A stretch of 64,000 bases of DNA. It comes from Ancylomarina sp. DW003 (lineage in GTDB: Bacteria > Bacteroidota > Bacteroidia > Bacteroidales > Marinifilaceae). The notes below the pieces were generated by a model. The model did not search any database. It saw only the letters and a list, made by a program, of their open reading frames with translations, and was not told the DNA's origin. The translations under genes were made by a program, and so were the position numbers. Positions 7,435 through 22,060 of this stretch are shown one piece after another. How positions within the stretch are numbered: the first letter of the stretch is position 1; every line of letters begins with the position of its first letter. The stretch is taken from contig NZ_JAKJSD010000002.1 in the NCBI RefSeq assembly GCF_029029505.1, positions 1-64,000 on the forward strand, given 5' to 3'.

Positions 7435-8844
7435 ATGAAAAATACTTATTTTGATTTGATCGAGCAAAGCTACTACTTCCCTCAGGAAGGCTTTGATTTA
7501 AGAGATGACTTTCTAACCTTTCAAGGTATCTCTTTAAAATATCTAATTGAAAAACACGGTACTCCTTTCCGTTTCTTCTACTTGCCTAAAATTGGAGATC
7601 AGATAAAAAAAGCTCGTAATCTTTTTAATCGAGCCATAAAGAAAAACAACTATAATGGTAAGTATCATTATTGTTATTGCACAAAATGTAATCATTTTGC
7701 ACATGTAATTGGAGAAGCATTAAAGCATAATGTCAATTTAGAAACCTCATCGTCGTTTGATATCGATTTAATATTAAACCTCTACCGCGAAGGAAAAATA
7801 GATTTGGATCGAGAGATTGTACACAATGGTTATAAGACCGATGAATATCTCAGGAAAATCCTTAAAATGCAAAAAATTGGGTTTACCAACTCAATTATCA
7901 TTTTTGATGGTATTAATGAGTTAGAAAGGCTTAATAGTATTGCCAAAGAAGGACCAATAAAAATCGGTATTCGAATGGCAATTAATGAAGAACCCCAATC
8001 GGCTTATTATACATCAAGATTAGGCATTAGTCATTCAGAAATAATTGAATTCTATAAAACAAAAATTAAAGACAATCCTAAATTTGAATTGAAAATGCTA
8101 CATTTTTTTGTGGATTCAGGAATTAAGGATAGCCTTTACTATTGGGGAGAATTTCAAAAGGCGTTAAAGGTATATACTGAATTGAAGAAAGAGAGTGATA
8201 CCCTGGATTCATTCAATTTAGGTGGTGGTTTTCCCATTAGAAACAACTTAGGCTTTGAATACAATTATGATTATATGATCAATGAAATTGTTTCAAACAT
8301 TAAAAATGCATGCGAAGCGGAAAATATTCCTGAACCCAATATTTATACCGAGTTTGGCAAATACACGGTTGGAGAAAGCGGAGCTATTATTTTTAAAGTT
8401 TTAGAACAAAAACAGCAAAACGATACGGAGTCGTGGTATATTATTGACAACAGTCTAATGAATACGATACCTGATGCCTGGTCTATTCATGAAAAATTTA
8501 TTTTACTACCAATTAATAAATGGAAAAATGAATATAAGCGTGTAAACATTGGTGGCATTAGTTGTGATCACTCCGACTATTATAACTCTGAAGACTTAAA
8601 TCAAGAAGTCTTACTACCTGATTATTCAAGAGAGGAAAAAGAACCTTTGTATGTTGGATTTTTTCATACGGGAGCCTATCAGGATTCCATTAGTGGATAT
8701 GGCGGGATCAAGCACTGCTTAATACCATCTCCAAAGCACGTTATAATTGATAGGGATGAAAAGGGTAATTTTTTCGACTACGTGTATAGAAATGAACAAT
8801 CAGCCGATGAAATGTTTAAACTGTTAGGATACAAGAAAAAATGA
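7435..8844 (+). CDS. speA: Arginine decarboxylase, fold-III PLP type (SpeA-like)
   Basis: This 469-residue PLP enzyme has the alanine racemase-type barrel plus beta domain. The PLP-binding lysine is Lys84 in YCYCTKCN; the phosphate-binding glycine loop is GGGFP; the C-terminal catalytic cysteine sits in GGISCDHSDYY. It is shorter than the roughly 650-residue E. coli SpeA and matches the short form common in Bacteroidota. It would convert arginine to agmatine in the cytoplasm. The assignment rests on context: the stop overlaps the agmatinase start by 4 bases (ATGA), and a deoxyhypusine synthase-type gene follows. A diaminopimelate- or carboxynorspermidine-decarboxylase role is possible but fits the operon less well. 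Confidence 0.85.
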   Translation: MKNTYFDLIEQSYYFPQEGFDLRDDFLTFQGISLKYLIEKHGTPFRFFYLPKIGDQIKKARNLFNRAIKKNNYNGKYHYCYCTKCNHFAHVIGEALKHNVNLETSSSFDIDLILNLYREGKIDLDREIVHNGYKTDEYLRKILKMQKIGFTNSIIIFDGINELERLNSIAKEGPIKIGIRMAINEEPQSAYYTSRLGISHSEIIEFYKTKIKDNPKFELKMLHFFVDSGIKDSLYYWGEFQKALKVYTELKKESDTLDSFNLGGGFPIRNNLGFEYNYDYMINEIVSNIKNACEAENIPEPNIYTEFGKYTVGESGAIIFKVLEQKQQNDTESWYIIDNSLMNTIPDAWSIHEKFILLPINKWKNEYKRVNIGGISCDHSDYYNSEDLNQEVLLPDYSREEKEPLYVGFFHTGAYQDSISGYGGIKHCLIPSPKHVIIDRDEKGNFFDYVYRNEQSADEMFKLLGYKKK

Positions 8845-9695
8845 GAAATTTTGCAGGAATAGAAGATGAGTATTGCTCGTTTGAAGATGCTGCCACTCTT
8901 TTGCAATCCATTCCTTATGATGGAACAAGCACTTGGGGTAAAGGAGCAGATAAAGCATTCCCTGCTTTTTTAAGAGCATTGGAAAACATGGAGTTGTACG
9001 ATATTGAGACTGATTCGGAGGTATACAAAACAGGGGTTCACATTTTACCTGATATTAAGGAATCGTCTTCACCAGAAGCCATGGTAAATTCTGTTTATGA
9101 AGCCGTAAAAGAAGTTATACCATCAAAAAAATTCTTAACTTTTTTTGGTGGAGAACATTCTGTAAGCATTGGGATAATTAGAGCACTAACAGAACGGTAT
9201 GAAAATCTGACTGTCCTTCAATTGGACGCACACTCGGATTTACGTGCCACTTATAATGGGACTCCTTACAATCATGCCTGCGCTGTTCATGAAGCAAGTA
9301 AAACGACTAATTTAATTCAAGTCGGTATACGAAGCATGGATAGTTGCGAACTACCGTTCTTAAATCACGAGAAATGTTTCTTTGCGCATGACATTCATAA
9401 CAAAACTGCTTGGATGACTAATTCGATTAGTCAAATGACCAATCATGTTTATGTCACTATTGATTTGGATGTTTTTGATCCATCGATTATGCCATCCACG
9501 GGAACTCCAGAACCCGGAGGGTTGGATTGGTATACCGTTATTGCGTATTTACGTCAAGTATTCCGCAACAAAAATGTTGTGGGTTTTGATATTGTGGAGT
9601 TGGCACCACAAGAAGGGCAAAAAGCCTCGGATTTTTTGACTGCCAAATTGTATTATAAGCTTTTAAGCTACAAATTCGAAAATCATGGAAAATAA
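8841..9695 (+). CDS. speB: Agmatinase (ureohydrolase family)
   Basis: At 284 residues this is a Mn-dependent ureohydrolase. The metal ligands are all visible: His in GGEHSVS, the Asp-His-Asp cluster in LDAHSDLR, the Asp pair in DLDVFDPS followed by the family signature SxGTPEPGG, and the Glu in DIVELAP. It would hydrolyse agmatine to putrescine and urea. Its start overlaps the decarboxylase stop by 4 bases and its end overlaps the next start by 11 bases, so the three genes are translationally coupled. Arginase is the main alternative; the upstream decarboxylase favours agmatinase. Confidence 0.9.
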   Translation: MRNFAGIEDEYCSFEDAATLLQSIPYDGTSTWGKGADKAFPAFLRALENMELYDIETDSEVYKTGVHILPDIKESSSPEAMVNSVYEAVKEVIPSKKFLTFFGGEHSVSIGIIRALTERYENLTVLQLDAHSDLRATYNGTPYNHACAVHEASKTTNLIQVGIRSMDSCELPFLNHEKCFFAHDIHNKTAWMTNSISQMTNHVYVTIDLDVFDPSIMPSTGTPEPGGLDWYTVIAYLRQVFRNKNVVGFDIVELAPQEGQKASDFLTAKLYYKLLSYKFENHGK

Positions 9696-10662
9696 AGGAT
9701 CTGTTTCAAAATTCATTTTAGAGCATTATCGTCATTTTAATTCGGCAACTCTTATAGATGCGGCTCAGGCTTACGAAAAACATCTTGCTGAAGGGAAGAA
9801 AATGATGATTACTCTTGCTGGTGCAATGAGTACAGCAGAAATAGGACGATCATTAGCAGAAATGATTCGTCAGGATAAGGTGCAAATCATCACCTGTACT
9901 GGCGCAAATCTGGAAGAAGACATTATGAATTTGGTTGCTCATTCGCATTACGAGAGAGTACCGCATTACAGAGATTTGACACCTCAGGATGAATGGAGGC
10001 TTTTAGAGCGTGGGTTGAACCGTGTTACCGACACTTGTATTCCAGAGGAAGAAGCATTCCGCCGCTTACAGAAGCATATTTTTGATATTTGGAAAAAAGC
10101 CGAAAAGAATGGAGAACGCTATTTTCCACACGAGTTTATGTACAAACTTCTCCTATCAGGTGTTTTGGAGCAATACTATGAAATAGATCCAAAAAATAGT
10201 TGGATGCTAGAAGCAGCAAAGAAAAACTTACCAATTGTAGTACCTGGTTGGGAAGATTCTACAATGGGTAATATATTCGCATCATATTGCATTAAAGGAG
10301 AACTTAAGGCATCAACTATGAAGTCAGGAATTGAATATATGACATGGTTGGCCGATTGGTATACTGAAAATGCCGAAGACAAAGGAATCGGATTCTTCCA
10401 GATTGGTGGTGGTATTGCAGGTGATTTCCCAATATGTGTTGTACCAATGCTTTATCAGGATATGGAAAGGAGCGATACGCCATTCTGGAGTTACTTCTGT
10501 CAAATTTCTGATTCAACAACCAGTTATGGATCGTATTCAGGTGCTGTACCTAATGAGAAAATCACTTGGGGTAAATTAGGAATTGATACGCCAAAATTTG
10601 TTATAGAATCTGATGCAACAATAGTCGTTCCTTTAATTTTTGCCTATTTATTAGGCTGGTAG
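9685..10662 (+). CDS. Deoxyhypusine synthase-family protein (probable homospermidine/spermidine-type synthase)
   Basis: At 325 residues this protein has the DHS Rossmann-like fold with NAD-binding elements (TCTGANLEEDIMN near 71-82). The active-site lysine is conserved in ITWGKLG (Lys297), equivalent to the lysine that carries the butylamine group in eukaryotic DHS. Bacteria have no eIF5A to modify, and bacterial members of this family make homospermidine or related polyamines by the same NAD-dependent aminobutyl transfer. Placement right after agmatinase, overlapping by 11 bases, agrees: putrescine would be its substrate. The exact product cannot be told from sequence. Confidence 0.85.
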   Translation: MENKGSVSKFILEHYRHFNSATLIDAAQAYEKHLAEGKKMMITLAGAMSTAEIGRSLAEMIRQDKVQIITCTGANLEEDIMNLVAHSHYERVPHYRDLTPQDEWRLLERGLNRVTDTCIPEEEAFRRLQKHIFDIWKKAEKNGERYFPHEFMYKLLLSGVLEQYYEIDPKNSWMLEAAKKNLPIVVPGWEDSTMGNIFASYCIKGELKASTMKSGIEYMTWLADWYTENAEDKGIGFFQIGGGIAGDFPICVVPMLYQDMERSDTPFWSYFCQISDSTTSYGSYSGAVPNEKITWGKLGIDTPKFVIESDATIVVPLIFAYLLGW

Positions 10663-10703
10663 TTTATTAAGATTTATGCCTTAATTTCTAATAATTAATA
10701 ATC

Positions 10704-11027
10704 ATGACTCAAATTTCAAAACCCAAAGTAATTCAGAATTACGAAAAGCTCACTCTAGAAATACAGGAGCAATTAAAATTATATTATCCTGATGGCTATA
10801 TTGATAATTTGATCGAATTTACAAATTCGAAAGGAGAACTGGTTAGTGCTCTTCCATTCGAAACTGATGAAAAAATTTACATGGTTAGAATGTCGGTTAG
10901 AAAAGCACAAGCATTAGTAGATGAGGATTCAGATTATGACCATGATGGCATGCTTCTAAAGAAAAGAAGAGAAGAGTATGAAGATAAGTATTCTGATCTT
11001 GACTATTTATTTTCTGACAATGACTAA
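10704..11027 (+). CDS. Conserved hypothetical small acidic protein
   Basis: This 107-residue soluble protein has no signal peptide or membrane segment. It is helix-rich with a very acidic C-terminus (DEDSDYDHDG ... YSDLDYLFSDND). It lies 41 bases after the deoxyhypusine synthase-type gene on the same strand and before a strong terminator, so it is probably the last gene of the polyamine transcript. I recognise no domain. The acidic tail suggests a protein-binding or cation-binding role, which is speculation. Confidence 0.6.
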   Translation: MTQISKPKVIQNYEKLTLEIQEQLKLYYPDGYIDNLIEFTNSKGELVSALPFETDEKIYMVRMSVRKAQALVDEDSDYDHDGMLLKKRREEYEDKYSDLDYLFSDND

Positions 11028-11056
11028 AGTTATAATAGGAAGGTTAATTTAAAAAT

Positions 11057-11097
11057 ATAGGCTTATTCATGGTTTGAATAAGCCTATTTAATTTTTT
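11057..11097 (+). terminator. Terminator of the polyamine operon
   Basis: An 11-bp stem (TAGGCTTATTC at 11058-11068, GAATAAGCCTA at 11076-11086) is followed by a T-rich tract ending ATTTTTT. It closes the transcript that begins at the arginine decarboxylase. Confidence 0.9.
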
Positions 11098-11100
11098 AAT

Positions 11101-11125
11101 GTGACAAACTAACATTGTTAGCGTC
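11101..11125 (+). promoter_or_regulatory. Candidate ECF sigma promoter (site 1)
   Basis: GTGAC at 11101-11105 and CGTC at 11122-11125 are separated by 16 bases, ending 26 bases before the ATG at 11152. The shape (an AC-ending -35 box and a CGTC -10 box) is typical of ECF sigma promoters. The same pair with spacing 15 recurs at three other places near the ECF gene at 13454. Confidence 0.5.
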
Positions 11126-11151
11126 TAATTTGAAATTAAAATTTGAATATA

Positions 11152-11391
11152 ATGAGCAAAGAGAAGTCACATGAGAAAGCATTGTCTGACTCATTCATTT
11201 ATTGGAAAACAAAACCTAGTAACAAAGTTAAAATCGCTTTTCAAGACATATTTCCAACTGCTTTAAATGTAAAATGGCGATTATTAGCTACAGGTTACTA
11301 TAAAGTTCTATTTTCATTAAATGATGAAAAGTTATTTGCAATCTTTACTTCTGAAGGAGAATTCGTAAGAATATATAAGAAGTCGATATAG
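11152..11391 (+). CDS. Small PepSY-like protein
   Basis: The frame also opens at a TTG (11143), but the ATG at 11152 is the likelier start and gives 79 residues. There is no signal peptide. The C-terminal 50 residues (AFQDIFPTALNVKWRLLATGYYKVLFSLNDE...) match the strand pattern of one PepSY-like repeat: a helix, then VxW, then strands with a YxVxFxLN pattern. The secreted 152-residue protein at 16997 has the same pattern. The two may be related members of one regulon because both follow a GTGAC/CGTC site. The gene ends 5 bases from the convergent response regulator. Function unknown. Confidence 0.6.
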   Translation: MSKEKSHEKALSDSFIYWKTKPSNKVKIAFQDIFPTALNVKWRLLATGYYKVLFSLNDEKLFAIFTSEGEFVRIYKKSI

Positions 11392-11396
11392 ACAGC

Positions 11397-12038
11397 TTAT
11401 TCTATCAATTTATTTCTAAAAGCATATTTAACTAATCCAGCAGTATTTTTAACTGCCAATTTCTCCATTAAATTCCTTCTATGTGTATCAATTGTTCTGG
11501 TACTCACAAACAATTTATTAGCTATTTCAGCATTAGAAAATTCTTGAGAAATCAACTGAAGTACTTCAACTTCTCTTTTGGTTAGTGGGATATCAGTACT
11601 TGGCTTAGATTTCTGAATGGCATTCAACATTAAACATTTAGAAACCTCTTGGCTCAAATATGTTTCTCCATTTGCTATAGATTTTATAGCTGTCAGCACT
11701 TCCTCTTTCCCTGAATTTTTTAAAATATACCCCATAGCTCCAGCTTCAAGCATCTTTATAACATATTCTTGATCACCATGCATCGAAATGGCTAAGACAT
11801 TAATGCCACTATAATGAGATTTAATTCTTCTGGTTAAATCTATACCATTAGTTTCTCCCATATCAATGTCCATAAGTACAACCTCCGGAGATTTTTCTTT
11901 AATGAGATTCATTATTTCAATTTCATTATCTGAATCTCCACAAACGTCTATTAACTTTTCTTTACTAAGCAATGCTTTAAGACCATCACGAAACATTTTG
12001 TGATCATCGGCAATAATAACTTTTATTTTTGTATTCAT
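11397..12038 (-). CDS. Two-component response regulator, NarL/LuxR type
   Basis: At 213 residues this protein has a receiver domain (1-120) with the acidic pair Asp11-Asp12, phosphoacceptor Asp57 (VVLMDID) and the conserved Lys in YILKNSG. A LuxR-type helix-turn-helix follows at about 148-210 (LTKREVEVLQLI ... NAEIANKLFVSTRTIDTHRRNLMEKL). It is a DNA-binding transcription regulator. Its start lies 6 bases after the stop of the sensor kinase gene, so the two form an operon transcribed kinase first. Confidence 0.95.
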   Translation of the reverse strand: MNTKIKVIIADDHKMFRDGLKALLSKEKLIDVCGDSDNEIEIMNLIKEKSPEVVLMDIDMGETNGIDLTRRIKSHYSGINVLAISMHGDQEYVIKMLEAGAMGYILKNSGKEEVLTAIKSIANGETYLSQEVSKCLMLNAIQKSKPSTDIPLTKREVEVLQLISQEFSNAEIANKLFVSTRTIDTHRRNLMEKLAVKNTAGLVKYAFRNKLIE

Positions 12039-12044
12039 AAATCA

Positions 12045-13037
12045 TTATTTTTCGAGAGGTATCTCAACAGTAACAGAAACTCCTTTCGTAGTCGAAGTAT
12101 CTAATATAAAATTCCCCCCGAGAGCGTTAGTTCTCGATTCAATATTAATTAAACCAACTCCTGGGTTCTCATTCATAATATCCTGTTTATTAAAACCTTT
12201 CCCATTATCTTCAACCATAAGTATTATACTACTAGAATGTTCGATTATTTGCACCTGCACCTCTTTAGCACCCGAATGCTTTACGGCATTATTAATCAAT
12301 TCTTGGCAAATTCTATAGATACCTAGTTCTATTAACTCAGCATACCTCCCACTAACAACAGAATGAAAGAAAATAATTTTAATTTTTTCCGTTCTATTGA
12401 TTTGATTAATCATGTTTTCAGTTGCAGGAATTATTCCAAAATCAAGAAGTACTTTAGGCATTAATTGATGTGATATACTTCTTATATCACTTGCTACTGA
12501 ATCTATAAGCTCAAAGACATCTTTCATCTTAGAATTAGCTTTAGGAGATAATTCCCATGATGTTTCTGTATTTATGGCCTCAAACATTAATTTAATAATA
12601 GAAAGATTAGGCCCAACTCCATCATGAATTTCTTTAGCAATTCGTCTTCTCTCCAATTCCTGAGCTTCGAGCATAGAATTTAAAGCCACCATCTCCATTT
12701 CTTTATCACGAGTTATGTCTTCAATCGTCACAATATAACCTTCATCAACCTGCCTTCCCCTTATGTTCAAAAATCTATCATCGAATAAAAAAGCATCCAA
12801 ATCAAAAGAGGAATTATTATGCTTTAAAGAATCTTTCAATTTTGCTTTTAAGGATTGTATATGATCAAAACATTCAAATACGGACTTCCCAATCAGCATC
12901 TGCTCTCGATTATCTAATTTTAATAATTGTGTAGCTTGTTCATTTGCAATTAAAATCTCATTAGCATTCTCAATTGCAAGAATACCATACGGGGCTTCTT
13001 GAACAAGAGATTCAAGCATTTTACAAATCTTATCCAC
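12045..13037 (-). CDS. PAS-domain sensor histidine kinase, HisKA_3 (NarX/DesK) type
   Basis: This is a 330-residue cytoplasmic kinase. The N-terminal PAS-like domain is at about 8-110. The HisKA_3 dimerisation helix has the phosphoacceptor His138 in RRIAKEIHDGVG. The C-terminal ATPase domain has the N box ELINNAVKHSGA, the G1 box VEDNGKGF and the G2 region GVGLINIESR. There are no transmembrane helices, so it senses an internal or membrane-diffusible cue. It is the partner of the adjacent NarL-type regulator. The divergent promoter region on its 5' side also holds a candidate ECF promoter directed to the right. Confidence 0.95.
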   Translation of the reverse strand: MDKICKMLESLVQEAPYGILAIENANEILIANEQATQLLKLDNREQMLIGKSVFECFDHIQSLKAKLKDSLKHNNSSFDLDAFLFDDRFLNIRGRQVDEGYIVTIEDITRDKEMEMVALNSMLEAQELERRRIAKEIHDGVGPNLSIIKLMFEAINTETSWELSPKANSKMKDVFELIDSVASDIRSISHQLMPKVLLDFGIIPATENMINQINRTEKIKIIFFHSVVSGRYAELIELGIYRICQELINNAVKHSGAKEVQVQIIEHSSSIILMVEDNGKGFNKQDIMNENPGVGLINIESRTNALGGNFILDTSTTKGVSVTVEIPLEK

Positions 13038-13118
13038 GCTCTATATATTAATATTAAAACATTTAATGTTAAAAAAACAATTCAATTATAGACAAAAATC
13101 TTAAATGATTATTCTGAT

Positions 13119-13142
13119 GTGACTTTTTTATTTTAATACGTC
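13119..13142 (+). promoter_or_regulatory. Candidate ECF sigma promoter (site 2)
   Basis: GTGAC at 13119-13123 is followed by 15 bases, mostly T and A, and CGTC at 13139-13142. The small basic gene begins 41 bases further on. A T-run follows GTGAC here and at site 3. Confidence 0.55.
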
Positions 13143-13182
13143 CAATAAGGTAAAACCACAGTCAAATCTAATAAATAAGAAC

Positions 13183-13308
13183 ATGTCAAAAACATTTAGA
13201 CACAATAACTCCGAAAGTCGATCTAAATTTTCTAAGACTAAAAGATCCACCAAACTTTCAAATAAAAAGAAATTGTTAAAGGATTACTATAAAGGCCTTA
13301 TAGAGTAA
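13183..13308 (+). CDS. Very basic 41-residue protein
   Basis: ATG at 13183 opens a 41-codon frame ending TAA at 13308. The product is rich in Lys, Arg and Ser (MSKTFRHNNS ... SKFSKTKRSTK ... LLKDYYKGLIE), with a disordered basic N-terminal two thirds and a short amphipathic C-terminus. It lies between a candidate ECF promoter (41 bases upstream) and a strong intrinsic terminator (22 bases downstream), so it looks like a complete single-gene transcript. It has no membrane segment, which argues against a membrane anti-sigma factor. A nucleic acid- or ribosome-binding stress peptide is possible but unproven. Confidence 0.6.
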   Translation: MSKTFRHNNSESRSKFSKTKRSTKLSNKKKLLKDYYKGLIE

Positions 13309-13329
13309 CTTCAGTTTATATTACGCATC

Positions 13330-13358
13330 AAAGTAGGTAAAATCACCTACTTTATTTT
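13330..13358 (+). terminator. Intrinsic terminator of the 41-residue gene
   Basis: A perfect 9-bp stem (AAAGTAGGT at 13330-13338, ACCTACTTT at 13345-13353) with a 6-base loop is followed by ATTTT. Confidence 0.85.
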
Positions 13359-13422
13359 AAGAAAACTTCGCAATTGAAAACCCGTATTTTACACTAAAAA
13401 TTACGATCTCAGATTATCTAGC

Positions 13423-13452
13423 TTTATCTGTATAAAACAAAAACCAGATAAA
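13423..13452 (+). promoter_or_regulatory. Hairpin directly before the ECF sigma start codon
   Basis: TTTATCTG (13423-13430) and CAGATAAA (13445-13452) can form an 8-bp stem that ends 1 base before the ATG at 13454. In the mRNA this would cover the ribosome-binding area and could limit sigma factor translation. There is no T tract, so it is not a terminator. Confidence 0.4.
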
Positions 13453-13453
13453 C

Positions 13454-14005
13454 ATGACAAGGTCATCATTAACATCAGAAACAAATAAAGAGCATGCTGC
13501 AAAATCCAAAAATTGTGATACAATAAGCTTTGGTGTTTTGTATGAAAGACACTTTGATAAAGTTTATTATCAGTGTCTTTCTTTTTCAAAAAACCATGAT
13601 GAAGCTTACGACCTGACGCAAGAAATATTTTTAAAAATATTTGACAAGCTTCACACATTTGAAGGACGTTCACATTTTACAACTTGGCTCTTCAAATTAA
13701 CCCAGAATCATTGTATCGAATATTACCGGAAAAACAAACGATTTACTTATGAAGACATCATGAATCATGAATATCATTTAATTGATGACAATGATGAAGC
13801 CATGCTTAATGATCAAATTAATATCAATAATATATTGGATAATCTCACAGAATCTGACAAGCTAATGCTTAGCATGAAATACTTAGAAGGGAATAGTATT
13901 AAAGAGATACAAGACAAATTTCAAATTGGTGCTAGTGCTGTAAAAATGCGTATACAAAGAGCCAAACGAAAAGTTGAGAAAAAATTCGATTTTTTAATGA
14001 ATTAA
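13454..14005 (+). CDS. ECF-type RNA polymerase sigma factor
   Basis: At 183 residues this protein has sigma region 2 (about 28-95: LYERHFDKVYYQCLSFSKNHDEAYDLTQEIFLKIF ... FTTWLFKLTQNHCIEYYRK) and region 4 (about 125-180: LTESDKLMLSMKYLEGNSIKEIQDKFQIGASAVKMRIQRAKRKV). It would direct RNA polymerase to a small set of promoters. No anti-sigma gene adjoins it, unlike the two FecI-type loci further right. Four GTGAC-N15/16-(C/A)GTC sites surround it (11101, 13119, 14007, 16943) and are its likely targets. One begins 2 bases after its stop codon. Its own start is covered by a hairpin. Confidence 0.93.
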   Translation: MTRSSLTSETNKEHAAKSKNCDTISFGVLYERHFDKVYYQCLSFSKNHDEAYDLTQEIFLKIFDKLHTFEGRSHFTTWLFKLTQNHCIEYYRKNKRFTYEDIMNHEYHLIDDNDEAMLNDQININNILDNLTESDKLMLSMKYLEGNSIKEIQDKFQIGASAVKMRIQRAKRKVEKKFDFLMN

Positions 14006-14006
14006 T

Positions 14007-14030
14007 GTGACTTTTTAAATTTTCTCAGTC
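14007..14030 (+). promoter_or_regulatory. Candidate ECF sigma promoter (site 3)
   Basis: GTGAC at 14007-14011, a 15-base spacer starting TTTTT, and AGTC at 14027-14030 lie immediately after the sigma gene. Transcription from here would start near 14037 and enter a long structured leader before the gene at 14270. Confidence 0.5.
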
Positions 14031-14036
14031 TAAACA

Positions 14037-14265
14037 GTAAAGTGTTTGTCGTAAAATTAGTTTTAAGATTAATTAGTATTTTATTGAGATGATATCGTTA
14101 TAAGCAGCTTGAAGATTGTTGTAGTCAATGGATTGTGGTGTGCAATCCTAACTAAAAAAACATTAGGCTTTCCAAACCTAAGACTTTCCTCTTGCTGACG
14201 AATATAACACAGGAAGAGCATTATACGGTTGAAATGCATCTTCCTGTTCATCTCTTATTTTTTTG
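14037..14265 (+). ncRNA. Candidate structured leader or small RNA ending in a terminator hairpin
   Basis: About 230 bases without a gene contain three successive hairpins: GGATTG/CAATCC (14130-14148), TTAGG/CCTAA (14163-14181) and a 14-bp stem with one bulged A (14209-14247). The last is followed by the T-rich run TCTCTTATTTTTTT up to 14264, the form of an intrinsic terminator, only 5 bases before the ATG at 14270. TTTCCT at 14185-14190 could pair with AGGAA in the 5' arm of the last stem and act as an anti-terminator. A 7-codon frame (14128-14151) overlaps the first hairpin. Either an attenuated leader or an ECF-driven small RNA is possible. Confidence 0.4.
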
Positions 14266-14269
14266 AAAA

Positions 14270-15280
14270 ATGAAAAAGAAAGAATTACTAAAAAACAAGG
14301 TTAAAACCATTGACATTACATCCTTTGATTCTTCCATATTTCTAGGAGAAACAAAAAATCAGATTGATGACTTTAAAGAAATATCTGAGGCTTCATTGAT
14401 GTATTCAAAAATGCTCAATGATAAATCTTGTAATATTATTTTATCAATTTCGGGAAATAATATTAGCCCTAGCTATCAGAAAATTTATTCTGATATGATA
14501 AAGTATAATTTAGTAGATGCAATAGTAGCAAGTGGAGAAACTATAATAGACGTAGATTTTTTTGAATCTTTAGGTTTTAATTATTATGAAAAGACAAATA
14601 ACATACCAACTAAAAAACTTAGAGAATTTTATATCAATCAGCGAAATAACTTATTCGTTGATGAGGATGATATGCATCTTCTTGACAATGCTATTAAGGA
14701 AATTGCAGATCAATTAGAACCTAAGTCATATTCATCAAGTGAGCTTATTTACTATCTAGGACAATATCTCGAAATTTATTCAACAGAAAAAGACTCAATA
14801 ATACAATTGGCATATCAACATGGCGTTCCTATTCTCTGCCCTGATTTGGCATACAGCAGATTTGGCATAGGGCTTCTTAAACATTTTGATGAAAACCCTA
14901 ATCGACATATTTCAATTGATCCTATAAAAGAACTAAAAGAATTTTCCAATTTAAAGGCGAAATCAAATGCATTAGGACTAATATCAATTGGTGATGATTA
15001 TATTTCACATATTACTTACAACATAGTTAAATATTCAGAACAAATCGGAGGACAATCCTTTATTTTTAAATATGCTATACATCTTAGCGACTCAAACATA
15101 GAAACCGGGGATTGTTCCTCCACAAAACTCGATGAGGCTATATCAAGAGGCTGCTTAATTGGTAATAACCATAAATTTGTAAACGTAAGTTTAGATTTAA
15201 GTTTACCACTCCTAATCAACTCTTTATATCAGTCGAACACATACATAACTCGGAATCGTAGAAATATTTACCCAAAATAA
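14270..15280 (+). CDS. Deoxyhypusine synthase paralogue lacking the catalytic lysine
   Basis: This 336-residue protein is a distant deoxyhypusine synthase relative. Visible family blocks include VDAIVASGETIIDVDFFESLG (a remnant of the NAD-binding VD..V...G..EED segment), KKLREFYINQRNNLFV, the GVPILCPDL segment and the C-terminal LDEAISRGCL. The equivalent in true enzymes is (P)DEAVSWGKI, and the lysine that forms the covalent imine is Cys295 here. The active DHS-type protein of this window (9685) keeps that lysine. It therefore cannot use the known mechanism and may be a pseudo-enzyme, a binding protein or an enzyme with new chemistry. It is preceded by a terminator-like leader and followed by a strong terminator. 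Confidence 0.75.
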   Translation: MKKKELLKNKVKTIDITSFDSSIFLGETKNQIDDFKEISEASLMYSKMLNDKSCNIILSISGNNISPSYQKIYSDMIKYNLVDAIVASGETIIDVDFFESLGFNYYEKTNNIPTKKLREFYINQRNNLFVDEDDMHLLDNAIKEIADQLEPKSYSSSELIYYLGQYLEIYSTEKDSIIQLAYQHGVPILCPDLAYSRFGIGLLKHFDENPNRHISIDPIKELKEFSNLKAKSNALGLISIGDDYISHITYNIVKYSEQIGGQSFIFKYAIHLSDSNIETGDCSSTKLDEAISRGCLIGNNHKFVNVSLDLSLPLLINSLYQSNTYITRNRRNIYPK

Positions 15281-15325
15281 AATAATACAGACCTGTTAAT
15301 AATTCGTGTTTAGATCGTACCCCAG

Positions 15326-15392
15326 AAGGAGCAGTAATAAAATCAATCTTTTTTAATACAAGATATTGATTATACTGCTCCTTATTTTTTTT
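15326..15392 (+). terminator. Long intrinsic terminator after the DHS paralogue
   Basis: AAGGAGCAGTA (15326-15336) pairs with TACTGCTCCTT (15373-15383), and the inner part continues as a mostly paired stem (15337-15350 with 15360-15372). It is followed by a nine-T run. The next start codon lies only 18 bases after the T run, so expression of the next gene needs read-through or an unseen promoter inside this stem region. Confidence 0.85.
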
Positions 15393-15410
15393 AGAAAAAG
15401 TCCTACTAAT

Positions 15411-16940
15411 ATGCGTAGTCCCAAAATAGAATTAAGACATCTAAAATCTGAAGATTACTATGCTCTTAAACAAGCCTCAACAGAAGCTTATGCAGGTATA
15501 GAAGGTCAGGTTTGGAATAAACCTGATCTCAATCGATTATTAAAAACATTCCCAGAAGGGCAAATTTGCATTTTAGTTAAAGGCAAAGTTGTAGCATGTG
15601 CTTTATCCATAATTGTCAAGTCAAGACTTGTGACTAAACAACACACATATAAAGAAATCACAGGGAATTTCACTTTTTCAACTCATACCGAAAATGGCGA
15701 TGTGCTATATGGTATCGAAATATTAGTTCATCCCAAACATAGGGATAAAAGATTAGGACGAAGATTGTATGATGCCCGTAAAGAACTATGCGAAAATCTA
15801 AATCTAAAATCAATCGTAGCCGGAGGAAGGATCCCAAATTACAAACGTTATTCAAAACAATTAAGTCCGCGAGAATATATAGAAAATGTTAAAAAACGAG
15901 AAATCAGTGACCCTGTATTAAGTTTTCAGCTTTCAAATGATTTTCACGTTAAAAAAATCCTAAAAGAATATCTCCCCGGCGATTCAGAATCAGAAGATTA
16001 TGCAACATTGCTTGAATGGAACAATATTTATTATCAAGAAGATCTCAAATTAATAAATACAGAAAAAAAAAGTGTTAGAATTGGGATTGTTCAATGGCAA
16101 ATGCGATCATTCCAAAATTTTGAAAATTTAATTGAACAAGTTGAATACTTTGTGGATTCATTGAGTCGGTACAAGGTTGATTTTATTCTGTTCCCAGAAT
16201 TATTCCATGCTCCCTTATTAGCCAATTTCAATGAAATGAATGAATCAAAGGCTATTAGAATGCTTGCCAAATTTACTGAATCTTTGAGAGAGGTTTTCAG
16301 CGATTATTCAATAAAATATAATACGAATATTATTGCTGGTTGTTTACCATGCTGGGAACACGAAAAACTCTATAGTATTTCATATTTGTGCAGAAGAGAT
16401 GGAACATTTGATTCTCAATATAAAATACACCCCACTCCTTCTGAAGTAAAATGTTGGGGTATGAATGGTGGATTAAACATAAATACTTTCGATACAGATT
16501 GTGGAAGAATAGGCATACTCTCAGGTTATGATATTGAATTTCCTGAGCTAGCAAGATTACAAGCTCAGGAAAATGTGCAGATATTATTTGTTCCTTTTGT
16601 TTCTGATAGTAAAAACAGCTACTATAGAATAAGACGATGTGCACAATCAAGGGCAATTGAAAATGAGTGCTATGTGGCTATATCTGGATGTGTTGGTAAT
16701 TTACCAAAAATTTCCAACATGGATATTCAATATGCACAATCGGCAATTTTCACCCCATCTGATTTTGCATTCCCTACTGATGCAATTTTGGCAGAAGCAA
16801 CACCAAACACAGAAATGACTCTAATAGCTGATCTTGACATGAGTTTATTAAAGCATGTTCACGAATTTGGCAATCACACGAATCTAAAAAACCGTAGAAC
16901 TGATTTATATCAAGTATTATTAAAAAATAAGACAGAATAA
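15411..16940 (+). CDS. GNAT acetyltransferase-nitrilase fusion with altered nitrilase nucleophile
   Basis: The frame opens earlier at a TTG, but the ATG at 15411 (MRSPKIELRHL) fits the family start and gives 509 residues. Residues 1-190 are a GNAT acetyltransferase domain (YGIEILVHPKHRDKRLGRRLYDARK is the acetyl-CoA loop). Residues 215-509 are a carbon-nitrogen hydrolase domain of the YhcX type. The nitrilase Glu (LFPELF) and Lys (QYKIHPTP) are present. The nucleophile position, normally GxxxCYD.EFPE, reads GILSGYDIEFPE, so the cysteine is Gly372. Members with Cys hydrolyse amides such as N-carbamoylputrescine; this one should not hydrolyse by that route. It probably uses the acetyltransferase half, with a binding role for the other half (inference). 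Confidence 0.85.
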   Translation: MRSPKIELRHLKSEDYYALKQASTEAYAGIEGQVWNKPDLNRLLKTFPEGQICILVKGKVVACALSIIVKSRLVTKQHTYKEITGNFTFSTHTENGDVLYGIEILVHPKHRDKRLGRRLYDARKELCENLNLKSIVAGGRIPNYKRYSKQLSPREYIENVKKREISDPVLSFQLSNDFHVKKILKEYLPGDSESEDYATLLEWNNIYYQEDLKLINTEKKSVRIGIVQWQMRSFQNFENLIEQVEYFVDSLSRYKVDFILFPELFHAPLLANFNEMNESKAIRMLAKFTESLREVFSDYSIKYNTNIIAGCLPCWEHEKLYSISYLCRRDGTFDSQYKIHPTPSEVKCWGMNGGLNINTFDTDCGRIGILSGYDIEFPELARLQAQENVQILFVPFVSDSKNSYYRIRRCAQSRAIENECYVAISGCVGNLPKISNMDIQYAQSAIFTPSDFAFPTDAILAEATPNTEMTLIADLDMSLLKHVHEFGNHTNLKNRRTDLYQVLLKNKTE

Positions 16941-16942
16941 AA

Positions 16943-16966
16943 GTGACTTATCTAGTTAATCTCGTC
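16943..16966 (+). promoter_or_regulatory. Candidate ECF sigma promoter (site 4)
   Basis: GTGAC at 16943-16947, a 15-base spacer and CGTC at 16963-16966 lie 31 bases before the start of the secreted PepSY-like gene. The geometry matches sites 2 and 3. Confidence 0.55.
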
Positions 16967-16996
16967 AAACTACTATAAACTTTAAAATTAAAAAAA

Positions 16997-17455
16997 ATGA
17001 AAACAATACTATTACTATTAATTGGATTTATACCAAGTTTGGTTTTTGGTCAACACATTGATGTTCCTAAAAAAGTCACTAAAACATTTGAAGAAAAATT
17101 CCAGGATGTTGAAGATTTATCATGGAACACTAAGAATGATAATTTTGAAGCGTCATTCTATTTAAATGATATTTACACATTAAGCCTGTATACTAAACAA
17201 GGTGTATGGCTCGAAACAGCATCAGCAACTAATCCTTATGAAATTCCTACGGGACTAGTTGACAAAATATATAACACCTATAGCGAATCTGAAATAGAGC
17301 GCATATTTGATGTAGAAACTTTTAAGAATACACATTTCTTTAGAATTGAATTAACCGATGAGAAAACTCATTATCTCATCACGGTGACTCACAAAGGCGT
17401 AATAACTGAAATTAGCAAAACTGCACTTAATAATTATGACGAAGAATTAGAATAG
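16997..17455 (+). CDS. Secreted PepSY-like protein
   Basis: At 152 residues the protein has a clear signal peptide (MKTILLLLIGFIPSLVFGQ, cut near residue 19). The mature part contains two PepSY-like units (about 22-80 and 85-145). Each has a helix followed by strands with the pattern VxxxxWxxxxxxxEAxFxLND or FFRIELTDEKTHYLITVTHKG. Such proteins are common periplasmic or surface proteins in Bacteroidota and resemble beta-lactamase-inhibitor folds, but their role is largely unknown. A candidate ECF promoter sits just upstream and a strong terminator follows. It shares its repeat pattern with the cytosolic gene at 11152. Confidence 0.75.
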   Translation: MKTILLLLIGFIPSLVFGQHIDVPKKVTKTFEEKFQDVEDLSWNTKNDNFEASFYLNDIYTLSLYTKQGVWLETASATNPYEIPTGLVDKIYNTYSESEIERIFDVETFKNTHFFRIELTDEKTHYLITVTHKGVITEISKTALNNYDEELE

Positions 17456-17480
17456 TATTCCTTGTTATATTCTAATTGTT

Positions 17481-17510
17481 GGCCGCCTATATGGGCGGCC
17501 TTTTATTTAT
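17481..17510 (+). terminator. Intrinsic terminator after the PepSY-like gene
   Basis: GGCCGCC (17481-17487) and GGCGGCC (17494-17500) form a 7-bp GC stem with a 6-base loop, followed by TTTTATTTAT. Confidence 0.9.
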
Positions 17511-17899
17511 TGATAAAACCAACACTCAAACAGTTGGTTAGACTTTTTTTTAGTATTATTCGAACAATTGCCCGATAAGCAGCAAAGGCCTAAAAAACAC
17601 CATTATATTGATGCCAAGCAAAAAATGTCATTTTTACTGTTAATCCACATCTCATCTGACATTTTGACTTTTAATACAGTTAAGGCTTAAGCATAAATGA
17701 CATTTTTTCACTCTTTAGTCTATCATACCAAAACCCACACAACTCCCTAATAAACAACACCAAACACTCAAAACCTCTCTTTAAACAAATCATTTTTGGC
17801 ATTCGATTTGATCAAAAATAAATGGATCGCGATTCCAATATTTTAATTTAAACTGTTAATTATTTAATAATAAAAAAAATTAATTAAGGAGGATTTATC
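17511..17899 (+). promoter_or_regulatory. Intergenic region upstream of hsp20 with repeated TGACATTTT
   Basis: There is no gene here. Three copies of one 9-mer occur in 85 bases: AAAATGTCA at 17622-17630 (inverted), TGACATTTT at 17657-17665 and TGACATTTT at 17698-17706. ACTGTTAA and ACAGTTAA also flank the middle copy. No CIRCE element (TTAGCACTC inverted repeat) was seen. A strong ribosome-binding site AAGGAGG (17886-17892) lies 7 bases before the ATG, one of very few in the window. Confidence 0.35.
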
Positions 17900-18343
17900 A
17901 TGACACTAGTAAAGAGAAATTCAGACAATTTATTTCCATCCTTATTTGACAATTTCTTCTCAAGAGATTGGATGGATTGGAACAATTCAAACTATTCTAA
18001 TACTAACACAACATTACCCGCAGTAAATGTTCGTGAAGACGATCATGAATTCACGATTGAAGTAGCAGCTCCAGGCATGAAAAAAGATGATTTCAACATC
18101 AATCTGGATAATAACCAATTAACTATCTCCTCTGAAATCAAGAGTGAAAGCGAAGGTAAAGAAGGGAATTATTCTCGCAAGGAGTTCTCATATCAATCGT
18201 TTAGCAGATCATTTAGGCTTCCTGTAAATTTAATTGATGGTGATAAAATTTCGGCCAAATACGATGAAGGTATCCTTTGTATTCGTTTACCTAAAAAAGA
18301 AGAAGCAAAACCTAAACCATCAAGAATCATTTCTATCAAATAA
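17900..18343 (+). CDS. Small heat-shock protein, Hsp20/alpha-crystallin family
   Basis: The 147-residue chaperone has an N-terminal arm (FPSLFDNFFSRDWMDW, typical of bacterial Hsp20), an alpha-crystallin domain at about 40-132 (PAVNVREDDHEFTIEVAAPGMKKDDF ... ISAKYDEGILCIRLPK) and a short tail with the oligomer-linking IxI-like ending (RIISIK). It holds unfolded proteins in a refoldable state without ATP. The strong Shine-Dalgarno sequence suggests high translation after induction. It is a single gene closed by a strong terminator. Confidence 0.96.
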   Translation: MTLVKRNSDNLFPSLFDNFFSRDWMDWNNSNYSNTNTTLPAVNVREDDHEFTIEVAAPGMKKDDFNINLDNNQLTISSEIKSESEGKEGNYSRKEFSYQSFSRSFRLPVNLIDGDKISAKYDEGILCIRLPKKEEAKPKPSRIISIK

Positions 18344-18348
18344 TCGAG

Positions 18349-18384
18349 TAGGAGGAAAATAAAATAGTTTTCCTCCTATTTTAC
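18349..18384 (+). terminator. Intrinsic terminator of hsp20
   Basis: TAGGAGGAAAA (18349-18359) and TTTTCCTCCTA (18368-18378) form a perfect 11-bp stem with an 8-base loop, followed by TTTTAC. Confidence 0.9.
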
Positions 18385-18385
18385 T

Positions 18386-18434
18386 TTCCGACCTCTCACA
18401 CCACCGTACGTACGGTTCTCGTATACGGCGGTTC
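18386..18434 (-). mobile_element. Group II intron domain V/VI relic
   Basis: Read on the minus strand, 18434 to 18386 has the form of group II intron domain V and the start of domain VI. A 9-bp lower stem is made by ACCGCCGTA (18432-18424) with TACGGTGGT (18408-18400); a two-base CG bulge, a short upper stem and a small loop follow; then GTGTGAGAGGTCGG. This GTACGTACGGTGGTGTGAGAGG-type core is characteristic of bacterial introns. No reverse transcriptase or other intron domain lies nearby, so it is a fragment. It sits exactly between the hsp20 terminator and the end of hsdR, at the left edge of the accessory island. Confidence 0.6.
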
Positions 18435-18503: not shown

Positions 18504-21500
18504 TCATGACTCTGCTGCGAACTGGATTCGATCGTTTGTTGGGTAAATCTTGATGAGGGATCTTTCGAAATCGTCACAAAGCTGCTGTAAGCTTGATTTT
18601 GTTTCGCGAATAAAAAATGTACTTAGTGTTTTTTTATTTCGGCGAATGTATTTCTTATAAATAAGATTAAAATCAGAAAAAATTTCTTCTGTATCGAAAG
18701 CACAGCCTTCATCTGTCATTTTTGCCATTAGTCTTTTTCCATTGGTATCAAGTTTTATATACGCGAAAAACTTTTCGATCTGAGTTTCAAACTCTTCAAT
18801 TAATTGCTCGATTTCTTCTTCTTCCTGGTTTCTCTTTTCAATTACTCTTAAGATATCAAAGCGGTATTGTTTCCCATTTGAATCTCCTGAAACACCACCC
18901 TTAGTTGGCTTAGCTTTATCTCCTTCTTTGGGCTCGTTGGGAGCAATGATCCCAATTCTATTATCGAAAAATATGTCCACATCGTCGACAATATCTTCTG
19001 GTCTGTGAATATTATTATACTCATTGTTGAATTTCTTCCAAAATTGCAGGAAGTTTTCTTCATTATACTTCTTATCTAAATCAAGTACATAAACAATGAG
19101 ATTTAGGATTTTGAAGTAATCATTAACGAGTTTCTTAAGAGATTTTGCTGCTTGAGGTTTGGCATGTATAAAATCAGTAAAACTGTTTTGCAAATTAATT
19201 ATAATCTGAATTTCAGATTGATTTTCCTGATAATTCAAGAATGCATGATAACAGGTTTTAAATAAATCATGTTCTCTCAACTTCTGATATTTCTCAACTA
19301 ATTTTTCTTCATCCTTAAGTGGATCAAAATCTGAAACGACGACATTGCTAAAATGCTCAAAAGCCTTTTTAATATTATTTACATTCACATTTTTATATGA
19401 GAAATCAACGATCTTACAGTCGTGTTTTTTAAAGCTTGGTGGTAAAGTTCGATTTACTCTTGAAATGGTTTGAATCGCATTTATCCCTCTAATTTCCTTA
19501 TCCAAAAATAGAGTATGCAACTTGGGTTCGTCAAATCCTGTCTGTAATTTATCTACAACTATAATTAAACCATTTTTGCAAGTAGCGAAGTTTTGTAGCA
19601 CTTTCTCTTCTGACATCTTATTGATAGAAGATGCACTCATATGGTCTTGATTATCGCTGTAAACTATATATACAGGAGCCTTTTCAAATCGAGAGTACTT
19701 ACTTTCCTGAACTTTTCCAGCAAAAAATGTATCTATATACCCTTTGTATTTAACTGCAGCTTTTATTGATGAAACCGCCAGCATTGCTTTGGCTTTCTTA
19801 CTGACTTGATAATAGACCGATGAAACTAATCGGTCCACGATAAATTTGGATATCGCTTCAATCCGCTCATCATTTTCGTATATTTTCTTCTTTCGGATAG
19901 CATATTTATTGCCCTTCTTATCAATCCCAGTACTTGTATTATCCGGAATCTCATAGCCTGTATCTCCTTCAAATCCTTCAATATCACTACCAGGAATATC
20001 GAAATACATTTTAGCTGAAACTGGAACAACTCCCTTTATAGGATTTAAAATATACCCATCATCAATAGCTTCTTTCATTGTGTAACTATCGAAAGGCACC
20101 CATATTTTTTCAGCCTCAGCATATTTATTAAATTCACCAAAACGTGCTAGTGTATGATCACTTGGAGTAGCTGTAAAACCAATTATCAGATTTTTCTTTA
20201 CTTGCTGTTTCTTATACATCTCATTATTATCAAAACTGCTTTGTAGTTCATCAAATAGAGAAATCATTTCTTCGTTCTGTTTGCCATTTTGGCTACGATG
20301 AATTTCATCGATAATAAAAGCGATTCGTAACGAAGCTAATCTTTTAACTATTTCACTTGTAAGAACTCCACTAATTGTGTTAAACTTCTGAACGTTAACA
20401 ACAACAATTCTAGTATCACTTTCTAAGGCTTTAACAAATGATTTTTGATCGGAAGCCTCGATATACATTTTATTGCTAATGTTCATGTTGTACATTAACG
20501 AATCTAATTGATCGCGAAGTTGTACTCTATCAACCACCAACATGATTTTATCGTAAACGTATTCCTTTTCTTTTCGTAAATCTTTTAATTGAAGGGCTGT
20601 CCAGCCAATAATATTACTCTTTCCGAAACCTGCAGCGTATTGCAAGAGTAAAGAATAAACATTTTTATTGTTTTGATACTTTAGACGTTTGCTTATTAAT
20701 TCTTCAGCTTGCTGGTCACCAATACCTTTCCCTTTCAACTCCTCTCGAAGTTTATTAATGAAATAATCTGGTTCACTTTCATGCTCCAGAAATTCATTGA
20801 TTTTACTTAGAATCTTATCCGCACCAAACTTTTGTTTTGGGCGTGGTGCTATTAATCGACCATCGTTGTGTTTGTATTGTTTGTTTTTATTCCCTTCTTT
20901 CTTTACTAATTCTCGTTCGATAAAATTGTAATACAGTATTTCACGCTCTATCATTTTTTTATCATACAAGGCTTTAAAAGCTTCCTCGAAACGTTTGGTT
21001 TTAGAAGCTTTAGGATTTTTGAGAGGATAAATCTTAAAATCTTTTTCAAGACGTATATTATAATTCTCGAAATCGTAGCTTCCTTTAGCAGTAGTTTCTT
21101 CTATATTATCGAAAAGATTGCTGATGTTACGAATGACAAATGTTTCTTGAATATCAGTAGATGTAATGTGGATTGCTTTTTCAAATATTTTCAAAAAATC
21201 TTTACGAATTGTTCTCGACACATCATTTTTATTGGCAATTACCAGATATTCCTGAACAGCATTTAGATAATCCTTGGCAACTTTATTTCGTCCTCCTTTT
21301 CTTGCATTCTGATTGTTATAATTACTTTTCAGCTCAGTATAAGTAATAAAAATCCCATTTAAGAAAAAAGATAAATCCGGACGAAATGAAAAACGCTGTT
21401 TGTCTTCAAACTTAAATTTATATGGTAATTCTTGAACTACGGAATAGATGTTTTCATTGAACAGTTTATCCTCGTATGTTTCGCTCCCACTGGGATAAAA

Positions 21501-21818
21501 TAAATGCAGCTTAACCCCTTCAAAAGTAACTGACTTATTCTTATTAATAAAAATCGCCATGTTCATGGATTCCTTAATACGTAGGCTTAGAAAATCCATA
21601 AAGGCTCTCATCAATTCTTTCTCTGAATCAAATTTGCGAAGTAACTTCTTATAATTATCTCTATTTAAAGTTGTGTCACTTATGAAGTTTTTCAAATCTT
21701 CAACTACAAAGAATTGAGATGATACCGTATTTGCCTTTGCTTCGTTATATTGCAAACCATCTTTACGTTCGCAAAGAAAATTGATGAGGTATTTATCTTG
21801 TAAGTCTAATTCCTTCAT
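18504..21818 (-). CDS. hsdR: Type I restriction endonuclease, R subunit
   Basis: At 1104 residues this is the motor and nuclease subunit. The N-terminal PD-(D/E)XK-type nuclease has FRPDLSFFLNG ... YTELKS at about 147-167. The superfamily-2 helicase core follows with Walker A AAGFGKSN (about 398-405), DEIH box, motif III GFTATPSDHT, and later LIIVVDKLQTGFDEPKL and QTISRVNR. The C-terminal region binds the methylase core. With HsdM and HsdS it would translocate and cut unmodified DNA. It is the last gene of the operon, separated from hsdS by 242 bases that hold an Abi-type remnant. It appears full length and intact. Confidence 0.95.
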   Translation of the reverse strand: MKELDLQDKYLINFLCERKDGLQYNEAKANTVSSQFFVVEDLKNFISDTTLNRDNYKKLLRKFDSEKELMRAFMDFLSLRIKESMNMAIFINKNKSVTFEGVKLHLFYPSGSETYEDKLFNENIYSVVQELPYKFKFEDKQRFSFRPDLSFFLNGIFITYTELKSNYNNQNARKGGRNKVAKDYLNAVQEYLVIANKNDVSRTIRKDFLKIFEKAIHITSTDIQETFVIRNISNLFDNIEETTAKGSYDFENYNIRLEKDFKIYPLKNPKASKTKRFEEAFKALYDKKMIEREILYYNFIERELVKKEGNKNKQYKHNDGRLIAPRPKQKFGADKILSKINEFLEHESEPDYFINKLREELKGKGIGDQQAEELISKRLKYQNNKNVYSLLLQYAAGFGKSNIIGWTALQLKDLRKEKEYVYDKIMLVVDRVQLRDQLDSLMYNMNISNKMYIEASDQKSFVKALESDTRIVVVNVQKFNTISGVLTSEIVKRLASLRIAFIIDEIHRSQNGKQNEEMISLFDELQSSFDNNEMYKKQQVKKNLIIGFTATPSDHTLARFGEFNKYAEAEKIWVPFDSYTMKEAIDDGYILNPIKGVVPVSAKMYFDIPGSDIEGFEGDTGYEIPDNTSTGIDKKGNKYAIRKKKIYENDERIEAISKFIVDRLVSSVYYQVSKKAKAMLAVSSIKAAVKYKGYIDTFFAGKVQESKYSRFEKAPVYIVYSDNQDHMSASSINKMSEEKVLQNFATCKNGLIIVVDKLQTGFDEPKLHTLFLDKEIRGINAIQTISRVNRTLPPSFKKHDCKIVDFSYKNVNVNNIKKAFEHFSNVVVSDFDPLKDEEKLVEKYQKLREHDLFKTCYHAFLNYQENQSEIQIIINLQNSFTDFIHAKPQAAKSLKKLVNDYFKILNLIVYVLDLDKKYNEENFLQFWKKFNNEYNNIHRPEDIVDDVDIFFDNRIGIIAPNEPKEGDKAKPTKGGVSGDSNGKQYRFDILRVIEKRNQEEEEIEQLIEEFETQIEKFFAYIKLDTNGKRLMAKMTDEGCAFDTEEIFSDFNLIYKKYIRRNKKTLSTFFIRETKSSLQQLCDDFERSLIKIYPTNDRIQFAAES

Positions 21819-21861
21819 ATTTTAAGAGGGCGTCTAATTATTTCAAAATCTGTTCTTCTTC

Positions 21862-22035: not shown

Positions 22036-22060
22036 AAAGATAAACTTTTCTTTTGTTAAT

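Follow-up and report, generated by a model that had tools for sequence, protein, structure and literature searches.

Four promoter-like box pairs around an ECF sigma factor gene

We analysed positions 1 to 64,000 of contig NZ_JAKJSD010000002.1 from Ancylomarina sp. DW003 (this whole 64-kb stretch is called the window hereafter), in which a gene for an extracytoplasmic function (ECF) sigma factor lies amid four copies of a two-box motif, GTGAC-N15/16-(C/A)GTC. A first-pass annotation had proposed that these copies form a local regulon of that sigma factor, and our analysis leads to the same reading: the four box pairs are probably promoters used by the sigma factor encoded at 13454. The sigma protein was searched in 194 relatives, 56 of them genomes of the same family, and clear orthologues (54–57% identical over the aligned part) were found in four same-family genomes of other genera (G008, G010, G022 and G038, of which G008, G022 and G038 are Marinifilum); a close orthologue was absent from the four other searched genomes of the window's own genus. 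A further Ancylomarina locus, L103, encodes a sigma factor 61% identical to that of the window, and loci L107 and L108 each hold a kinase-regulator-sigma trio with a sigma factor 40–41% identical. The features of the locus are listed here.

11101..11125, plus strand: predicted ECF-type promoter boxes, GTGAC-N16-CGTC(TAAT), 5' of the first PepSY-like gene; position conserved in 4/4 close relatives and in L103
11152..11391, plus strand: first PepSY-like protein, 79 residues, a single repeat with a predicted DUF2874/BLIP-like fold; no signal peptide by eye
11397..12038, minus strand: NarL/LuxR-type response regulator; neighbour 71–72% identical in 4/4 relatives and 54–55% identical beside the sigma relatives of L107 and L108
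12045..13037, minus strand: PAS-HisKA_3 histidine kinase, by domain profile
13082..13095, plus strand: block TCAATTATAGACAA, candidate activator site, 37 bases 5' of GTGAC and identical in L103
13119..13142, plus strand: predicted ECF-type promoter boxes (N15), 5' of the 41-residue gene
13183..13308, plus strand: 41-residue basic protein
13331..13358, plus strand: terminator-like hairpin GTAGGT/ACCTAC followed by T-rich DNA
13454..14005, plus strand: ECF sigma factor, 183 residues
14007..14030, plus strand: predicted ECF-type promoter boxes (N15), immediately 3' of the sigma stop codon; none in L103
14085..14255, plus strand: conserved three-helix structured RNA, 54 nt 3' of the -10 box, common to five genomes
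14270..15280, plus strand: deoxyhypusine-synthase-like (DHS) enzyme, second copy
15411..16940, plus strand: GNAT and carbon-nitrogen hydrolase fusion (GNAT-nitrilase), by domain profiles
16943..16966, plus strand: predicted ECF-type promoter boxes (N15), 5' of the second PepSY-like gene
16997..17455, plus strand: second PepSY-like protein, two repeats with a predicted DUF2874 fold; signal-peptide-like start by eye

The sigma factor consists of regions 2 and 4 only (Sigma70_r2 and Sigma70_r4_2, both above cut-off) and thus falls within the present definition of ECF (group IV) factors, which asks for regions sigma2 and sigma4 only, as given in an excerpt of PMC8103513. When both strands of the window were scanned with the two-box pattern, exactly 4 matches were found against 0.42 expected, a count reached by 0 of 100 shuffles. 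All four lie on the plus strand, in intergenic DNA and 5' of a gene, with 16 bases between the boxes at 11101 and 15 at 13119, 14007 and 16943, just as the first-pass annotation had described them. That annotation had also proposed a comparison of motif density over the whole genome, and for the bare motif this gave no support: in 4.84 Mb we counted 23 matches versus 36 for a reversed-pattern control. Eighteen of the 19 matches outside the cluster fall within mechanically called open reading frames (ORFs) of at least 90 residues on either strand, and the remaining one has no such ORF in the 600 bases downstream. The cluster of intergenic box pairs 5' of genes is therefore unique in the genome, and the features that are not random are the clustering, the intergenic position and the conservation, not the frequency of the bare pattern. 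A generic sigma-70 promoter scan of the window was of little use (46 found versus 40.4 expected).

Conservation of the sites in relatives

In the four close relatives, a site was present at every one of the four orthologous positions (16/16), and in alignments of these loci the boxes are retained while much of the flanking DNA has diverged. Three of the four positions carry a site in L103, and the more distant L107 and L108 each have three sites within their 20 kb if the base preceding GTC is left free. Conservation upstream of orthologues, another check that had been suggested, was thus borne out.

We then trained a score matrix solely on the 16 sites of the four relatives and ran it on both strands of the window, where the four window sites ranked 1, 2, 3 and 5 over 64 kb. 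Rank 4 was taken by a match at 11170 on the minus strand, antisense within the first PepSY-like gene. Of the window's own sites, the two weaker ones (16943, 16.3 bits; 11101, 15.2 bits) are inside the range of the maxima from 8 order-1 random sequences (12.4–19.0), so that their support comes from positional conservation.

Around 39 loci of sigma relatives (L104–L107 being excluded as copies of counted genomes), the real box pair was found near 8, which placed it first of 360 letter arrangements, itself included; the next best arrangement reached 6 and the mean was 0.45. Given that five of the eight positives are close orthologues, we regard this control as only moderately convincing. Box pairs adjoining the sigma gene were seen in L030 (sigma 38% identical) and L033 (33%), and L111 has a variant one base longer 5' of its sigma gene. 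As a separate observation, similar frames of about 60 residues (NPFKK..) were noticed by eye 3' of the related sigma gene in Sinomicrobium L111 (10480–10700) and Mesonia L113 (10500–10710).

Specificity of the extended boxes

The sites of the relatives gave a refined consensus, TGTGACTT-N13/14-CGTCNAA, which was searched with up to 2 mismatches in five whole genomes (about 24 Mb). At that tolerance it gave 161 matches versus 334 for the reversed control. All 20 matches with 0–1 mismatch belonged to the sigma locus, where 19 lie no more than about 3 kb from the sigma gene and the other about 13 kb away; no such match occurred outside the locus anywhere in the 24 Mb. The relatives' own matches are expected by construction; the informative part is the behaviour of the window's sites and the absence of matches elsewhere. 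Similarly, TGTGAC-N16/17-GTCNAA gave 24 matches in the 5 sigma-positive family genomes, 21 of them no farther than about 13 kb from the sigma gene. The 51 family genomes that lack a close sigma orthologue (five of them holding sigma relatives at 35–38% identity) gave 38 matches versus 84 for the control. In G097, with a sigma factor 43% identical, both matches (2/2) fall in the sigma locus.

A strong genome-wide regulon was accordingly rejected: the bare pattern in the window's own genome and, off the locus, the refined patterns stay at or below their controls. The strong regulon looks local. The specificity originally claimed for the box pair therefore does not hold for the bare motif and does hold for the extended boxes. 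One match, TGTGACATACATTATAA..GTCAAA, recurs in G000 (C23:279736), G001, G002, G004 and G024; in G000 it lies inside a 589-residue ORF, so that its recurrence is probably coding conservation.

Promoter character of the boxes

The distance from the box pair to the start codon is short and nearly constant. Over six loci, the end of GTCNAA lies 19–23 nt from the start codon of the first PepSY-like gene, 37–39 nt from that of the 41-residue gene and 24–28 nt from that of the second PepSY-like gene; in the window the distances measured from GTC are 26, 40 and 30 nt, respectively. The putative -10 box reads CGTC at 12 of the 16 sites of the relatives and at 3 of the 4 window sites. According to an excerpt of PMC8103513, ECF factors were originally described by AAC at -35, CGT at -10, a co-transcribed anti-sigma gene and positive autoregulation, a description that was later relaxed.

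A conserved structured RNA after the sigma gene

The site immediately 3' of the sigma gene precedes a candidate structured RNA. In an alignment of five sequences, 94.1% of cells pair and 6 of the 27 pairs are changed on both sides, the structure having been drawn from the same five sequences that were scored for covariation. Slid versions of the structure pair at 36–50%, and among 500 shuffles the observed value was reached by 0 on four of five measures and by 5 on the fifth. A covariance model built from the five sequences finds them again (E ≤1e-22), while the 51 other family genomes give weak matches alone; six weak matches in other family genomes (E 0.00998 to 0.827) were not counted, and the strict filters applied in this search can miss weak matches. 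The 7 Rfam matches listed for 10600–18400 all fell below the gathering scores of their families.

The first-pass annotation had read this element as a structured leader in front of a DHS paralogue, a reading that needs correction. The DHS-like enzyme is matched in G010 and L103, and no DHS match was found in the fetched 15–20 kb of the three Marinifilum genomes, though the RNA is retained there; a DHS-specific leader was rejected on these grounds. The GNAT-nitrilase that follows is not exclusive to the module, relatives 55–57% identical occurring in 11 family genomes that lack a close sigma orthologue. The RNA may be either a 5' leader or a processed regulatory RNA. That it is a free small RNA, and not the leader of the downstream enzymes, is a serious contender which we nevertheless hold to be somewhat less probable than its opposite. 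It is favoured by the covariation of the RNA, by its retention in loci with no DHS-like gene found downstream and by the predicted promoter 54 nt 5' of it; the three Marinifilum sequences show no long U-run after helix P1, however, and the start codon of the DHS-like gene follows within about 20 nt in both the window and G010.

Proteins of the module and neighbouring genes

The sigma factor, the kinase and the 41-residue protein have strong matches in an identical set of 5/56 family genomes, made up of the window's own and the four close relatives (E ≤1e-40 for the kinase); the RNA model, having been built from these five, matches them too. The 41-residue protein was found (E ≤0.01) in 5 of the 194 genomes searched, all sigma-positive. 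In L108 (15512–16000), a 44-residue basic protein 24% identical to the 41-residue one lies behind a GTGAC site and before a GNAT/RimK-like fusion, away from the sigma gene. The first PepSY-like protein likewise has strong sequence matches in the sigma-positive five of the 56 family genomes, with ten weak matches elsewhere. Its fold model (predicted local distance difference test, pLDDT, 82.4) gave 3u1w (E 2.5e-3) and DUF2874 proteins as best PDB matches, none at E ≤0.001, and the protein had no match to the PepSY_like profile. In G010 (L056 12514–12695), stops interrupt the single-repeat PepSY-like gene, which is spread over two frames; the promoter site before it is intact.

For the second PepSY-like protein, the fold model matched 3u1w (E 3.2e-8) and the DUF2874 protein 4k61 (E 6.1e-8), with eight PDB chains at E ≤0.001, including BLIP-like ones. 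The PepSY_like profile is matched by 4 of its 6 members (E ≤0.01, best 5.1e-5), not by the window's member, and two members score 20.7 and 20.1 bits versus the Pfam cut-off of 28.3. The models thus suggest one DUF2874/BLIP-like repeat in the first protein and two in the second, the fold match being weak for the first and strong for the second. A search of NCBIfam gave no family for the PepSY-like or 41-residue proteins.

The module adjoins a polyamine-type cluster at 7435–11027 (Orn/Arg decarboxylase family, arginase family, deoxyhypusine-synthase-like and a 107-residue protein), an arrangement shared by L056 and L103 and, in part, by L107. Just 3' of the module lies an Hsp20-family gene (17900–18343) without an exact box pair, and then come Type I restriction-modification genes (18504–25443; restriction, specificity and methylase by Pfam).

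Control of the sigma factor

The absence of an adjacent anti-sigma gene, pointed out in the earlier annotation, agrees with our scan, in which no anti-sigma domain reached its curated cut-off among 18 neighbouring proteins. The first PepSY-like protein gave a weak, sub-threshold match to RsgI_N (E 0.053, 13.8 bits versus a cut-off of 25). Because no anti-sigma gene is in sight, we turn to the divergent kinase and regulator genes as possible controllers. From its domain layout the kinase is probably soluble, and the regulator, which was itself not searched genome-wide, adjoins it in the four close loci. The sequence TCAAT recurs 36–37 bases 5' of GTGAC in 6/6 loci, within AT-rich DNA, which is a weak hint that it may be an activator site. 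We give about even odds to the view that the kinase and regulator control the sigma factor, probably through transcription.

Between the 41-residue and sigma genes, the terminator-like hairpin is found in the window and in 4 of 5 relatives, not in L103; it escaped a generic search of the window for terminators. Thus, the predicted promoter 5' of the 41-residue gene may or may not feed the sigma gene.

Interpretation and alternative explanations

Taken together, we propose that the ECF sigma factor encoded at 13454 would direct RNA polymerase to TGTGACTT..CGTC(T/A)AA, in which GTGAC and the final four-base box are 15 or 16 bases apart. Sigma levels may be raised by the PAS kinase together with the LuxR-type regulator, upon which the sigma factor would fire the local promoters. 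The predicted targets are a probably cytoplasmic half-repeat PepSY-like protein, the 41-residue basic protein, the structured RNA followed by the genes for the DHS-like enzyme and the GNAT-nitrilase, and a second, presumably exported PepSY-like protein. We put the probability that the four box pairs are promoters of this sigma factor at roughly 0.8, given their conservation and co-occurrence with it, their promoter-like distances to start codons and their likeness to a known ECF promoter.

Several observations weigh against this picture or parts of it. The window site at 11101 has two mismatches to the refined consensus, a level not distinguishable from background, so that confinement to the locus holds for strong sites only and weak distant targets may exist. 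L103 lacks the post-sigma site despite having the sigma factor, and the RNA model found no match up to E 10 in L103, L107 or L108. The -35 box is GTGAC, that is, GAC and not the AAC usual for ECF promoters. Among the 39 sigma-relative flanks, 31 are without a match (27 at 27–38% identity and four at 39–43%), and the targets behind the sites of L107, L108 and other distant relatives differ from those of the window. The conserved hairpin speaks against simple positive autoregulation, which is therefore uncertain, and the control by kinase and regulator is argued from adjacency and co-occurrence.

The boxes could instead be binding sites of the neighbouring LuxR-type regulator, which adjoins the kinase in all four close site-bearing loci as well as in L103, L107 and L108. 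We consider this unlikely, as the boxes are asymmetric, are always in sense orientation at the four orthologous positions, come in two spacings, keep a short and almost fixed distance from the start codon, and resemble those of a known ECF promoter; moreover, boxes of this type adjoin sigma relatives in L030/L059 (G152) and, in a version one base longer, in L111, and the 20 kb fetched from these loci held no relative of the window's regulator or kinase. It is more improbable still that they serve another ECF sigma factor of the same genome. There are at least 17 ECF-like matches in that genome, and ECF regulons can overlap, as described for RpoE2 and RpoE6 of S. meliloti in an excerpt of PMC6180224; yet the site cluster goes with a close orthologue of this sigma factor, being present in the 5 family genomes that have one, and match counts in the other 51, each of which holds other ECF-like matches, remain at or below background. 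Coincidence, with the matches picked out visually, would fit the lack of genome-wide enrichment of the bare pattern and the scores of the two weaker sites, which stay within random maxima; but the filling of all 16 orthologous positions in four relatives and the lack of any 0–1-mismatch match off-locus make this explanation hardly credible.

Returning to a sigma factor acting on its own locus, the module is plausibly an accessory, stress-type one responding to an internal signal, perhaps osmotic or general stress. This is suggested by the genes behind the sites of relatives: in L055, a site precedes a 965-residue protein (AAA-like, just below the Pfam cut-off) followed by an MscS-type channel; in L107, the genes encode a universal stress protein and a STAS-like protein (STAS below cut-off); and in L108, they encode the kinase itself, a 185-residue protein of no assigned family and, preceded by a small protein like the 41-residue one, a GNAT/RimK-like fusion. 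A broader proposal, which we offer as tentative and rather doubtful, is that of a self-contained, transferable Bacteroidota module in which a kinase-controlled ECF factor without an anti-sigma factor governs a regulon within about 15 kb, a new regulatory RNA family is made from an ECF promoter, and the cytoplasmic half-repeat PepSY-like protein and 41-residue basic effector are, in the searched relatives, strongly matched only with the module.

Significance and comparison with known systems

An ECF regulon as such is known; what is unusual here is that the strong sites are in one locus and that one of them fronts an RNA absent from Rfam. We met few Bacteroidota ECF promoter specificities in the literature surveyed, part of it as excerpts, and literature searches found no description of this motif, locus or RNA. 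For this sigma factor, a near-complete set of strong targets can be read from the sequence, small enough for full testing. The module also ties a LuxR-type two-component pair to an ECF factor for which no anti-sigma gene is visible; it yields a refined promoter consensus and brings to light two companions of the sigma factor, a small basic protein and a candidate family of RNAs.

Among known systems, the likeness to ECF promoters noted in the first-pass annotation is clearest for enterobacterial sigma-E (RpoE), the boxes of which, GGAACTTTT and GTCAAA as given in an excerpt of PMC1804206, are nearly the same as GTGACTTTT and GTC(T/A)AA here, small-RNA promoters included. It differs in that the -35 core here is GAC and not AAC, no anti-sigma gene was found nearby and the strong sites are in one locus. 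CseBC-SigE and AfsQ1/Q2-SigQ of Streptomyces coelicolor also combine an ECF factor lacking an anti-sigma factor with two-component control (excerpt of PMC8999054), a control that in our case is no more than likely; unlike them, the present module is from Bacteroidota, has a PAS kinase without a visible membrane part and has local targets. The SM6 promoters of Flavobacterium psychrophilum differ in being tied to type IX secretion genes and a sigma/anti-sigma pair. Finally, PorXY-SigP of Porphyromonas gingivalis is, in the excerpted account of PMC4800418, a Bacteroidota two-component system acting via an ECF factor, as proposed here, whereas the motif suggested for SigP, C(T)AAA(G/C/T)A(T)A(C)T(A/G)A, does not resemble the present boxes, its targets are secretion genes and PorX was shown to bind SigP.

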